A stretch of DNA of 20,763 bases from a virus. The position numbers were made by a program, and so were the translations under genes. How positions within the stretch are numbered: the stretch's first letter is position 1; every line of letters begins with the position of its first letter. The notes under the pieces were generated by a model. The model was given only the letters and a program-made list of their open reading frames with translations. It ran no database searches and had not been told where the DNA came from. This document shows, piece after piece, positions 1-5,586 of this stretch. The stretch spans positions 1 to 20,763 of IMG/VR virus record IMGVR_UViG_3300011436_000011. One strand, 5' to 3'.

Positions 1-416
1 AAAAGATTGACGCGTACTTACAGCGGGAAACCGCCAAGTACCTTGCTAAAAATCAGGAAGCCAAAGCGGACCAACTCAACGATAAGGTGGCCACCATTCG
101 CGTATTTATGGGTCAGCTAGTCGAGACCCGCCGCACCATCGGGGCGCTTAAGGACAGCATCGAGGCCCTGTTTAGCGACAACGGCAAGGGCCTCCTGACC
201 CTGTGCACCATCCACAAGGCCAAGGGTCTTGAGTGGCCCACGGTCTACATACTGGACGCTAACCTTATGCCGTCCAAGTGGGCAAGGCAGGACTGGCAAC
301 TGGAACAGGAAACCAATCTGCAATATGTTGGAGTTACAAGGGCCAAAAATACGCTCCGGTATATCTACAGCGATGGGATACGTGATGAAGCAAAAACTGA
401 CACAGGAAAAGCTTAA
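1..416 (+). CDS. UvrD/Rep-like SF1 DNA helicase, C-terminal part (5' end outside window)
   Basis: The reading frame is open to the left edge (first full codon at base 3), so only about 137 C-terminal residues are present. They carry the last two motifs of a superfamily 1A helicase C-terminal domain: TIHKAKGLEW (motif V type, around bases 210-239) and NLQYVGVTRAKNTL (motif VI with its arginine finger, around bases 315-356). By family knowledge this is an ATP-driven 3'-5' DNA translocase or helicase acting in phage replication or recombination. The protein stops only about 19 residues after motif VI, and its last codons lie inside the start of the downstream HNH gene (32-base overlap), so the original C-terminus may have been replaced. 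The GTG at 87 is internal and not a real start. The helicase assignment is sure; the exact subfamily (UvrD, Rep, PcrA or phage-specific) is not. Confidence 0.85.
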   Translation, partial: KIDAYLQRETAKYLAKNQEAKADQLNDKVATIRVFMGQLVETRRTIGALKDSIEALFSDNGKGLLTLCTIHKAKGLEWPTVYILDANLMPSKWARQDWQLEQETNLQYVGVTRAKNTLRYIYSDGIRDEAKTDTGKA

Positions 417-879
417 ACGCCTATTGCGCTATGATCCTAAAACGGGCCACTTCTACTGGAGAGTGGCCCGCCGAGGCATTACTAAGGGCATGCGGGCCGG
501 GTACGCTGTGCAAAGAGGTTACGTATATATCTGCATAGACCGCCAAATGTATCTCGCTCATAGACTGGCATGGTTGTATAAAAAAGGTGGCTGGCCTGCC
601 GATGAACTTGACCATAAAAATAGAAGGCCATCCATAAATAAATGGAGCAACTTGCGCCTTGCAAACAGCACGCTCAACAAGATCAATTCAAATCTTAATA
701 GCAAAAATACAAGCGGCTATAAAGGTGTGACGTGGAATAAGAAACTTAAAAAATGGTGCGCTCGACTTTACATAAACAAAGCACCTAAAGCCCTTGGGTT
801 CTACACAAACAAGAAGCACGCGGCCCTAGCTTACAAACTCGCCGCGATAAAGCACTACAAGGAATTTGCCCATGTCTAG
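385..879 (+). CDS. HNH homing-endonuclease-like protein with C-terminal AP2 DNA-binding domain
   Basis: The product has 164 residues. The N-terminus (LTQEKLKRLLRYDPKTGHFYW) and the central segment AHRLAWLYKKGGWPADELDH followed by N-x(7)-N-K/R-type spacing match the HNH_3 type of phage HNH nucleases, with the conserved D-H pair in ELDHKN. The last 55 residues (SGYKGVTWNKKLKKWCARLY onward, with LGFYTNKKHAALAY) match the AP2/ERF-type DNA-binding domain often fused to HNH endonucleases in phages. ATG 385 is chosen because family members begin just there; an in-frame ATG at 373 is the alternative, and neither has a good ribosome binding site. The gene overlaps the helicase 3' end by 32 bases. It is clearly more AT-rich than its neighbours (I counted 43 G+C in 120 at 661-780 and 53 in 120 at 541-660), which fits recent acquisition as a selfish element. 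Confidence 0.85.
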   Translation: MKQKLTQEKLKRLLRYDPKTGHFYWRVARRGITKGMRAGYAVQRGYVYICIDRQMYLAHRLAWLYKKGGWPADELDHKNRRPSINKWSNLRLANSTLNKINSNLNSKNTSGYKGVTWNKKLKKWCARLYINKAPKALGFYTNKKHAALAYKLAAIKHYKEFAHV

Positions 880-2948: not shown

Positions 2949-3129
2949 CCTTGTGCGCTTACCTGACGGCTCATACAGACTGCGCATTGAAACCACGTCC
3001 AATGAGGCCACGCTTGTTAGCGAAAGCGTCTTTGCATCCGGCAAAGTCCGTGAAGCATTTGTCAAGGCATCATCAGACTTGTACGTAATGGCGGATGAGC
3101 TTGCCTCCGCCCCGCATGTAAAAGGATAG
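2914..3129 (+). CDS. Small hypothetical phage protein, 71 residues, GTG start
   Basis: I do not recognise a family. The GTG at 2914 is chosen because an exact ACGGAGGTAGACC ribosome binding site precedes it (bases about 2901-2913), even though this makes a 35-base overlap with the preceding gene. The product alternates beta-like segments (LILVSRLVVDLVRL, YRLRIETTSNEATL) and ends in a helix (KVREAFVKASSDLYVMADEL), a compact beta-alpha layout for a soluble small protein. It lies 6 bases upstream of the Topo VI-A/Spo11-like gene and may be co-translated with it. Whether it works with that protein is unknown. Confidence 0.7.
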   Translation: MELILVSRLVVDLVRLPDGSYRLRIETTSNEATLVSESVFASGKVREAFVKASSDLYVMADELASAPHVKG

Positions 3130-3135
3130 ATAGCT

Positions 3136-4041
3136 ATGCCAAAGATCACATACATCAAGAAGAACTTTCATCAGACAAGCCTAGCCATGATTGCTAAGGC
3201 TAACGAAATCATTACCGAGTATATGGCCAAGGGCTACAGCCTGACCCTGCGGCAATTATATTACCAGTTTGTGGCGCGTGACCTGTTGGCCAACAATCAA
3301 AAGAACTACAAAAACCTAGGCGCTATCCTGTCTGACGCTAGGCTTGCGGGCATGGTTGATTGGGACGCGCTAGAGGACCGCACGCGCAACCTGCGGAAGA
3401 ACCCTACGTGGTCCAGCCCTGCGGATATCGTGACAGCTTGCGCGGGACAATTCGATGTTGACTTGTGGCAGGATCAACGCAACCGCGTAGAAGTCTGGAT
3501 TGAAAAAGACGCGCTGGTAGGTGTCATCGAGCGTGTGTGCCATCAATGGCAGGTGCCTTACTTTGCTTGCCGTGGGTACACGTCACAAAGCGAGGCGTGG
3601 CAAGCCGGGCAACGGTTGCTCCACCACATTGACAACGGGCAAGAGCCTATTGTGCTGCACCTAGGGGACCATGACCCTAGCGGCCTGGACATGACGCGGG
3701 ACAACGGCAGCCGATTGGACCTGTTCACGGGCGGGGTCAAGATCAAGCGCCTTGCACTAAACATGAACCAAGTGAAACGCTACAACCCGCCACCAAATCC
3801 GGCAAAGGAAACAGACACGCGCCACGCGGATTACGTCAACGAGTACGGGCCTAGCTGTTGGGAGCTGGATGCGCTTGACCCAGAGGTAATCAGCAACTTG
3901 ATTGATGACGAAATATTAAAGCTAGTGGACGTGCCCAAGTTTGACAACATGATTAAGCAACGGGATTTAGGCCGCAAAGAACTAAAGACCGTGGCCGATA
4001 GCTGGCCTACGGCTGTTGCAGCCTGCCGCAAACGCAGGTAG
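3136..4041 (+). CDS. Stand-alone Topo VI subunit A / Spo11-like protein (winged helix plus Toprim)
   Basis: The product has 301 residues; ATG 3136 follows AAAGGATAG. Near residues 36-45, LTLRQLYYQF matches the winged-helix catalytic motif of Spo11 and Topo VI-A (R-x-x-Y-Y), so Y43 is the expected DNA-attacking tyrosine with R39 nearby. A Toprim domain follows: RVEVWIEKDAL around 117-127 (E123) and HLGDHDPSGLDM around 175-186 (D178 and D180), the metal-binding acidic triad. By family knowledge such proteins make or transfer double-strand breaks through a covalent 5'-phosphotyrosine link; the cellular enzyme needs the ATP-binding B subunit, and none is visible here. Stand-alone A-type proteins ('mini-A') are known, to my recollection, from mobile elements. 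The gene ends the early operon and borders a palindrome-rich noncoding region that could be its substrate. The fold assignment is strong; the activity is inferred. Confidence 0.8.
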   Translation: MPKITYIKKNFHQTSLAMIAKANEIITEYMAKGYSLTLRQLYYQFVARDLLANNQKNYKNLGAILSDARLAGMVDWDALEDRTRNLRKNPTWSSPADIVTACAGQFDVDLWQDQRNRVEVWIEKDALVGVIERVCHQWQVPYFACRGYTSQSEAWQAGQRLLHHIDNGQEPIVLHLGDHDPSGLDMTRDNGSRLDLFTGGVKIKRLALNMNQVKRYNPPPNPAKETDTRHADYVNEYGPSCWELDALDPEVISNLIDDEILKLVDVPKFDNMIKQRDLGRKELKTVADSWPTAVAACRKRR

Positions 4042-4113
4042 GATCAAGGCAGGGCCGCACCTAGCCATGGTCTAGCCCTCCTTTGTCCAAGGCGTTGAGG
4101 GACACTTTGGACC

Positions 4114-4143
4114 CCGCCGCCAGCCCTAACAGGTTGGCGGCGG
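4114..4143. repeat. 12-bp inverted repeat (stem-loop)
   Basis: CCGCCGCCAGCC (4114-4125) and GGTTGGCGGCGG (4132-4143) pair along their whole length with one G-T wobble and a 6-base loop (CTAACA). No T-run follows, so this is not a standard intrinsic terminator. It lies about 70 bases after the Spo11-like stop and could protect the early mRNA 3' end or be part of an origin structure. A weaker pair, GTCCAA (4085-4090) and TTGGAC (4107-4112), lies just upstream, and CCGGG/CCCGG (4152-4156, 4165-4169) just downstream. Confidence 0.6.
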
Positions 4144-4193
4144 TGCCGTGTCCGGGTCAAAACGCCCGGCCCCCTGCGGCGCTGGACAACCCA

Positions 4194-4262
4194 TAGGCGC
4201 TAACCCCAAAAACGCACACAGGTAGCCCGCCAGCCAGCGCCTACCAGCGGCCCAAAAACGCA
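4194..4262. repeat. 12-base direct repeats and 8-bp inverted repeat, iteron-like
   Basis: The exact 12-mer CCCAAAAACGCA occurs at 4205-4216 and again at 4251-4262. Interleaved with it is a perfect inverted repeat, TAGGCGCT (4194-4201) and AGCGCCTA (4236-4243). Two exact copies within 60 bases, close to an AT-rich stretch, resemble iterons near an unwinding element, but two copies are few for an iteron array. Confidence 0.5.
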
Positions 4263-4308
4263 GCCCTAGGGCATGTTTATCACGGTCTAGACCGGTTAAA
4301 GCCTAGGC
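4263..4308. repeat. Cluster of three CTAG-centred perfect palindromes
   Basis: GCCCTAGGGC (4263-4272), CGGTCTAGACCG (4283-4294) and GCCTAGGC (4301-4308) are perfect palindromes spaced 10 and 6 bases apart, immediately left of the AT-rich block at 4311-4330. Such regularly spaced dyads are typical binding sites for dimeric DNA-binding proteins. The 12-bp member recurs exactly, with its TTAAA flank, at 16091-16102. Confidence 0.5.
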
Positions 4309-4396
4309 GGGATCTGATTTTATAATGATTACAAAAAGCCCTAGGATCGTCGCCCATGCGGGCTGCCCTGGTGGGCTGTCCCTGGTGCCTGGATCA

Positions 4397-4441
4397 TGAC
4401 CGCCCCGCGCAGGCGCGATACGCGTAAGCACGGGGCGGTCA
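4397..4441. repeat. Perfect 11-bp inverted repeat with inner stem
   Basis: TGACCGCCCCG (4397-4407) is the exact reverse complement of CGGGGCGGTCA (4431-4441). The 23-base interval contains CGCG-ATA-CGCG, which could form an inner stem, giving a long cruciform or RNA hairpin. No T-run follows, so a simple terminator is unlikely. Confidence 0.6.
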
Positions 4442-4619
4442 ATCCTGGCCCTTGGTCCCTGGCACGCCTTGCGGCCCGTCAGGTGGCCCCGCCCCGTCAT
4501 GGCCCTTTCGGTCGGGCAATCGTGGGCGGCTGGCCTGTACCCGCCGCGTGGCCCATCCGGTTGGTTGGGCTTAGGCGGCTGGCACCCGGATACTACCATG
4601 GGCAGCTACAGGGTCAAGC

Positions 4620-4635
4620 CCCCTGCTAGCAGGGG
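4620..4635. repeat. 16-bp perfect CTAG-centred palindrome upstream of promoter, operator-like
   Basis: CCCCTGCTAGCAGGGG is a perfect 16-bp palindrome ending 29 bases before the -35 element proposed for the 79-residue gene. Its position upstream of the promoter suggests an activator or repressor site for a dimeric protein. No regulator gene that would bind it is visible in the window. Confidence 0.5.
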
Positions 4636-4664
4636 TTGGGCGGGGTAGGGGCTTCCGATTGCAC

Positions 4665-4693
4665 TTGATTAAGGTGAATGCCGCACCTATATT
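4665..4693 (+). promoter_or_regulatory. Sigma70-like promoter for the 79-residue gene
   Basis: TTGATT (4665-4670, 4 of 6 consensus) and TATATT (4688-4693, 5 of 6) are separated by 17 bases, placing transcription start near 4700 and giving a leader of about 27 bases to ATG 4727. A short inverted repeat, AGGTG (4672-4676) and CACCT (4684-4688), fills the spacer and could be an operator. Confidence 0.6.
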
Positions 4694-4726
4694 CTGGTGA
4701 CGCTTAACCCTGTCCCGGAGATTGAC

Positions 4727-4966
4727 ATGACTGCCAAGACCCAATTCATTGTTGGCCAAACCTACCAAACCCGTAGCCCTTGCGATCACGATTGTATCAT
4801 AACCGCCAAGGTGTTGACCCGGACGGCGCACACGGTCACAGTCGAGCTAAGCAACCGGGGCAACAAGACATTCCGCGTTAAGGCTGGCTATAATGGTGCC
4901 GAGATGTTTGCCCCGTGGGGCCGGTACAGCCTAGCGCCCCTAATGTCCGCTGGCGATATGGTCTAG
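4727..4966 (+). CDS. Small hypothetical phage protein, 79 residues, own transcription unit
   Basis: I do not recognise a family. ATG 4727 is preceded by CGGAG at 4716-4720; the longer in-frame reading from 4697 would start at the predicted transcription start and is rejected. The product is beta-rich, with IVGQTYQTRS followed by CDHDC (two Cys and a His in four residues), IITAKVLTRTAHTVTVELSN and TFRVKAGYNGAEMF. The pattern suggests a small SH3-like or beta-barrel fold; the C-x-x-x-C cluster could bind metal, but there is no second Cys pair. It has a dedicated promoter and a strong terminator, so it is expressed alone, as is common for host-modifying or regulatory phage genes. Function is unknown. 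Confidence 0.75.
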   Translation: MTAKTQFIVGQTYQTRSPCDHDCIITAKVLTRTAHTVTVELSNRGNKTFRVKAGYNGAEMFAPWGRYSLAPLMSAGDMV

Positions 4967-4988
4967 TCCGGTCCACCTGGACCCCAAC

Positions 4989-5018
4989 AAGCCCGGCCCT
5001 AGGCCGGGCTTTTTGTTT
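4989..5018 (+). terminator. Intrinsic terminator after the 79-residue gene
   Basis: AAGCCCGGCC (4989-4998) and GGCCGGGCTT (5002-5011) form a perfect 10-bp GC-rich stem with a 3-base loop, followed by TTTTGTTT. It lies 22 bases after the stop codon. This is a textbook Rho-independent terminator. Confidence 0.9.
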
Positions 5019-5028
5019 CCTTTTGCGC

Positions 5029-5058
5029 TTGACCCGGCCAGGGTCAAGGGCCTAGAGT
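5029..5058 (+). promoter_or_regulatory. Sigma70-like promoter with overlapping inverted repeat
   Basis: TTGACC (5029-5034) and TAGAGT (5053-5058) are spaced by 18 bases upstream of the 146-residue gene. The -35 box is the left arm of a perfect inverted repeat, TTGACCC-GGCCA-GGGTCAA (5029-5047), so a dimeric protein bound there would cover the -35 element and spacer. The predicted leader is about 28 bases. Confidence 0.6.
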
Positions 5059-5092
5059 CATCAGGCTTAACAACCGTAAGGGAGTCCCTCAC

Positions 5093-5533: not shown

Positions 5534-5553
5534 ATACCGCTGCACACAAAAAG

Positions 5554-5586
5554 ACGCCCCGGCAAGAAACCGGGGCGTTTTAGTTT
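5554..5586. terminator. Bidirectional intrinsic terminator between converging operons
   Basis: ACGCCCCGG (5554-5562) and CCGGGGCGT (5570-5578) form a perfect 9-bp stem with a 7-base loop. On the plus strand it is followed by TTTTAGTTTT; on the minus strand the flanking AAAAAG (5548-5553) gives CTTTTT. It can therefore end both the plus-strand unit finishing at 5533 and the minus-strand late operon finishing at 5666. Confidence 0.9.

Follow-up and report, generated by a model that had tools for sequence, protein, structure and literature searches.

Neither Spo11 nor Topo VI-A normally works without a B-type partner, and the question raised by this locus is whether a virus encodes an A-type protein that stands alone with its catalytic set intact, as an earlier note on this DNA had proposed. 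The window analyzed here is the whole stretch of 20,763 bases, an IMG/VR virus contig that may be a fragment of a genome. Our answer, held with high confidence, is that the ORF in question encodes a Mini-A protein that would act by a tyrosine-transesterase mechanism. The codons for R39, Y42-Y43, E123, D178 and D180 were read directly and lie where the earlier note had placed them (Table 1).

Table 1. Positions of the Mini-A gene, its putative translation signal, its predicted domains and its catalytic residues in the window
Feature	Position	Strand	Evidence
Putative RBS AAAGGA (Shine-Dalgarno-like AAGGA), 9 nt 5′ of the ATG	3121..3126	+	Direct read, inference
Mini-A (type IIB topoisomerase A-subunit-like) gene, 301 aa; ATG start, 301 codons, TAG stop	3136..4041	+	ORF list and direct read, PHROG 6247, homologues, AlphaFold2 model
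N-terminal winged-helix-like domain, residues 12-83	3169..3384	+	Domain model, PDB match
R39-x-x-Y42-Y43 motif in winged-helix (5Y-CAP) domain; R39 CGG 3250-3252, Y42 TAT 3259-3261, Y43 TAC 3262-3264; Y43 predicted nucleophile	3250..3264	+	Conservation; codons by direct read
Toprim half, residues 115-263	3478..3924	+	VIA-align to 1d3y
Toprim glutamate E123 (GAA; motif EK-x-AL)	3502..3504	+	Conservation, hhalign; codon by direct read
Toprim D-x-D, D178 (GAC 3667-3669) and D180 (GAC 3673-3675), in GDHDPSG	3667..3675	+	Conservation; codons by direct read

A profile search, one of the checks suggested earlier, matched the protein over nearly its full length to PHROG 6247 (“DNA topoisomerase”; E 1.2e-114) but left the Pfam family TP6A_N below threshold (12.1 bits against a cut-off of 26, E 0.18). 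By tblastn, residues 11-290 aligned with a protein of Pseudomonas phage NP1 at 47% identity (E 3e-82). NCBIfam and PADLOC searches with the protein gave no match, and sequence searches of the PDB returned no topoisomerase, their sole match, to an unrelated protein, being attributable to chance. Mini-A, described in 2020 (Takahashi et al. 2020, cited through PMC8185306), is a family of proteins like type IIB topoisomerases that occurs in viruses and mobile elements. The NP1 protein is the family example drawn in Figure 4 of PMC7614492, and the family is also recognized in PMC8084294 and PMC11302465. Beyond PMC7614492, papers describe Mini-A, encoded by viruses or mobile elements, as homologous to Topo VI-A or to the A part of Topo VIII and as having no known function.

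The protein of the window is homologous to that of NP1, carries the R-x-x-[YF]-Y motif together with the Toprim E and D-x-D, is short and A-only, and has a viral or mobile setting, as judged from phage records, plasmids and the tail genes in the window. Its size, both catalytic motifs, this setting and the lack of a B subunit are all shared with NP1-type Mini-A; no separating feature was found, and the protein is an ordinary sequence-level variant. It is therefore one more Mini-A and, because the family was already named, not a new discovery. The earlier note had presented the locus as an under-described biochemical system. The description holds insofar as the literature searched yielded no biochemical data on any Mini-A protein, but the system is not new, being already Mini-A/PHROG 6247, so the remaining question is biochemical rather than one of discovery.

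Relatives were numerous and, with the PHROG match, make a chance ORF very improbable. Matches by tblastn fell in 76 phage records, in 67 of which a single match spanned 80% or more of the query, and 42 plasmid records carried Mini-A homologues. A search of IMG/VR with the single protein found no relatives, whereas an alignment-based search found more than 500; these alignment-seeded scans confirmed at least 584 stretches in IMG/VR and 265 in bacterial and archaeal genomes. In Pseudomonas phage PIP (OR687155.1) the Mini-A region matched at only 26% and was spread over short hypothetical ORFs, which may reflect decay or a frameshift of the gene in this phage but not in its close relatives. Two archaeal MAGs, one of Candidatus Methanimicrococcus and one of Methanosarcinales, contained a Mini-A gene and gave no TP6A_N match. 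The former also had no Top6A Toprim match, which 34 of the 41 genomes searched in its phylum set have. The missing matches likely reflect MAG incompleteness or binning error.

In a 175-sequence Mini-A alignment that included the window protein and was mostly seeded on motifs containing Y43 or D178-D180, R39 was present in 173 sequences (two gaps), Y43 and D180 in 174 each (one gap for Y43), and E123, K124 and D178 in all 175. Because of this seeding, we also inspected eight relatives that tblastn alone had found, mostly with identities of 23-34%; among them are HCIV-1, plasmids of Streptomyces and Cupriavidus, and phages of Cellulophaga and Chryseobacterium. None of the eight had lost the arginine, the second tyrosine, the Toprim E-K or the first aspartate; in HCIV-1 the second aspartate of D-x-D was replaced by asparagine. 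Conservation in homologues, which the earlier note had named as a check, was thus borne out for Y43 and the acidic residues in both sets. Five of these eight relatives had A or H in place of the first tyrosine. Since the second tyrosine survives in divergent relatives in which the first has become A or H, Y43 rather than Y42 is likely the nucleophile.

Some actinophage annotations name the protein a “DNA binding protein”, in keeping with a structural or regulatory DNA-binding function for which catalysis is no longer selected. That reading predicts the opposite of what was found: the catalytic residues rank among the most conserved positions of the family, which argues against loss of catalysis, and we give it almost no credence.

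Alignment by hhalign with 19 archaeal Topo VI-A sequences was collinear across the motifs (E 7e-4, probability 26%; 2% with a smaller alignment). It paired R39/Y42-Y43 with STLRELYY, E123 with the Toprim glutamate and D178/D180 with the DGD of Topo VI-A. Judged at the level of sequence, the similarity to Topo VI-A is weak. The AlphaFold2 model of the full protein, built with 90 sequences, had a pLDDT of 91.9. With VIA-align, its Toprim half was superimposed on Topo VI-A 1d3y over 139 residues at 3.0 Å (Z 10.0), on other Topo VI-A chains at Z 9.2-9.8 and on the Spo11 core complex 8urq at Z 8.4; small Toprim proteins scored as high as Topo VI-A, up to Z 10.3 over about 107 residues. Foldseek with the full model gave modest E-values (4e-3 for Topo VI-A), and its search of predicted viral structures gave no informative match. 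The predicted Toprim half matches a Topo VI-A-like fold, and the model is not of a fold unrelated to Topo VI-A, the outcome that had been raised earlier as a check.

The N-terminal domain modelled alone had a pLDDT of 89.7. Its top PDB match by both programs was Topo VI-A (Foldseek E 1.7); the alignment with 1d3y covered 69 residues at 2.4 Å with a Z of 7.4, a value in the range of chance matches. Residues 12-83 of the model aligned with residues 72-143 of the 1d3y chain, an offset of 60 that places Y43 on residue 103, the catalytic tyrosine of M. jannaschii Topo VI-A. The domain match gains weight from this placement and from the independent collinear profile alignment with archaeal Topo VI-A. 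Motif conservation, profile alignment and predicted fold agree on a Topo VI-A/Spo11-like protein with its catalytic set intact, as the earlier note had claimed.

The Toprim half fits the Wadjet nuclease JetD (8b7f and 7til; Z 9.7 and 9.5) as well as it fits Topo VI-A. Mini-A could accordingly be read as a Toprim metal-dependent nuclease that hydrolyzes DNA with no covalent tyrosine intermediate. We consider this improbable, because the transesterase pair Y43/R39 is invariant in Mini-A and a metal-only nuclease would not need it. In addition, the PADLOC result gave no support to a Wadjet assignment, and the scanned ORFs neighbouring the Mini-A gene in the window included no SMC-type JetABC operon. 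The resemblance to JetD lies in the similar fold of the Toprim half, and the differences are the retained Tyr/Arg pair and the missing JetABC partners.

The earlier note had seen no Topo VI-B subunit in the window, and a profile search there likewise found no HATPase_c (PF02518). Because the window may be a fragment, it cannot by itself exclude a partner; however, HATPase_c, HATPase_c_3 (PF13589) and Topo-VIb_trans (PF09239) were also absent from 39 other Mini-A records, which include complete phage genomes and a complete plasmid, and the positive controls were matched in the genomes expected. With no GHKL or Topo VI-B domain in the window or in those 39 records, the stand-alone state of Mini-A looks genuine. 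In addition, the invariant tyrosine is at about residue 108 in archaeal Topo VI-A and at residue 43 here, so the part of Topo VI-A on the N-terminal side of this tyrosine has no counterpart in the window protein.

These results also bear on whether Mini-A is a complete topoisomerase subunit that borrows its ATPase partner from the host or from another part of the phage genome. Topo VI-B is the usual partner of Topo VI-A, and a host protein could stand in for Topo VI-B, but the three domain families are absent from complete phage genomes, the Topo VI-B transducer family was found in none of 10 bacterial control genomes, and the region preceding the tyrosine is lacking. We regard such recruitment as highly improbable.

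Set beside the known systems, the window protein shares with Topo VI-A the motif order (R-x-x-Y-Y, Toprim E, D-x-D), the predicted Toprim fold and the predicted placing of the catalytic tyrosine within a winged-helix domain, and differs in lacking about 65 N-terminal residues and a Topo VI-B partner and in its TP6A_N score below the cut-off. With Spo11, to which it was compared by motifs and fold only, it shares the motif order and a predicted Toprim half that aligns with 8urq, but it is viral, about 300 aa long and has no TopVIB-like partner that we could find. Mini-A is described as close to Topoisomerase VIII (PMC8185306), which likewise has a type IIB A-module and occurs on mobile elements; Topo VIII, however, has an ATPase B-module, usually fused, whereas the window protein has 301 aa and no GHKL domain.

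The preferred explanation is that Mini-A is the Topo VI-A/Spo11 DNA-gate module reduced to a minimal form that stands alone; we infer its dimerization, chemistry, DNA target and role as follows. Two copies would dimerize on duplex DNA, and Y43 in the winged helix would attack a backbone phosphate, aided by R39 and by Mg2+ held by Toprim residues E123, D178 and D180. By analogy with Topo VI-A and Spo11, the Toprim Mg2+ site would act in trans. The predicted product is a double-strand break with staggered ends, a tyrosine being covalently linked to each 5′ end. Since there is no GHKL ATPase gate, normal ATP-driven strand passage would not be expected, and Mini-A should instead cleave and religate DNA, reversibly or in a single turnover, during phage replication or recombination. 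With every catalytic residue retained across a widespread viral family and no B subunit detectable there, Mini-A would amount to an A-only DNA gate made by nature, through which the capabilities of the isolated A module and the origin of Spo11 could be studied. The window sequence adds one example to this family, and its relatives support Y43 over Y42 as the nucleophile.

The genes flanking Mini-A in annotated phages often belong to DNA metabolism: ligase, Sak4/RecA-like protein, Cas4 exonuclease, DNA polymerase, ThyX, RuvC-like resolvase and helicases. Of the roles suggested in the earlier note (replication, recombination, resolution or attack on host DNA), what the data support is this location next to genes of DNA metabolism. 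In NP1 and PaMx25, a DNA ligase/ThyX block lies on one side of Mini-A and a Sak4/RecA-like gene on the other, and in Fizzles Mini-A follows a Cas4-family exonuclease gene, with RuvC-like and recombinase genes nearby. Mini-A adjoins endonuclease V in RcSimone-Hastad, where a DNA polymerase gene is nearby, and follows a polymerase exonuclease subunit in Bacteroides phage BKO1-3. Base-modification genes are present in some Mini-A phages, namely aGPT-Pplase/Nmad5 in Pam3, QueE/QueC in PaMx25 and QueE in MA9V-3, so that Mini-A may conceivably be connected with hypermodified DNA.

When neighbours at about 175 loci were clustered, no partner (helicases, integrases, terminase, RecE-like exonuclease) occurred at more than 20 loci, indicating that there is no fixed operon partner. 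We also compared 28 Mini-A contigs with 22 background contigs picked by tail protein J and of broadly similar length (35-70 kb). Sak4-type AAA_24 was found in 5/28 and 5/22 contigs, respectively, and PDDEXK_1, which may miss Cas4-type exonucleases, in 2/28 and 0/22; neither was enriched, in sets that were sampled differently and consist of incomplete contigs, so that a small effect could be missed. On this result we dropped, as a general rule, the notion that Mini-A co-occurs with Sak4 or Cas4/RecB recombination genes. With neither a conserved neighbour nor any enrichment of these two gene types, it is the general genomic context that speaks to the biological role, and the case for a role specifically in phage replication or recombination is evenly balanced. 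In a narrower version, Mini-A would be a viral Spo11, an A-only maker of programmed double-strand breaks that start recombination-dependent phage replication. The context for it is the position of Mini-A in NP1, PaMx25 and Fizzles beside a Sak4/RecA-like recombinase, Cas4-type exonuclease, ligase or RuvC-like resolvase, and we offer it as a tentative and rather unlikely proposal.

The left part of the window encodes, on the plus strand, the C-terminus of a UvrD-like helicase, an HNH endonuclease and a small protein of a helicase/endonuclease PHROG. Major tail protein, tape measure, minor tail proteins and a J-type tip protein are encoded on the minus strand of the right part; this gene set is consistent with a siphovirus, the type of virus assumed in the earlier note. 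The HNH endonuclease ORF (229-879, plus strand) has a weak AP2-like domain, overlaps the end of the UvrD-like helicase ORF (87-416) and looks like a homing-type endonuclease. The region 3′ of the Mini-A gene (4042-5092) is poor in convincing ORFs; it holds several short repeats and, at 4989-5011, a strong hairpin resembling a terminator. A further terminator-like hairpin at 5551-5581, on both strands, separates the plus-strand early genes from the minus-strand tail genes, which fits the expectation for convergent transcription units. The tail protein J segment of another record, IMGVR_UViG_3300011425_000015 (15,171 bases), is 100% identical to that of the window, and this record probably derives from the same phage, as a further piece or isolate of it.
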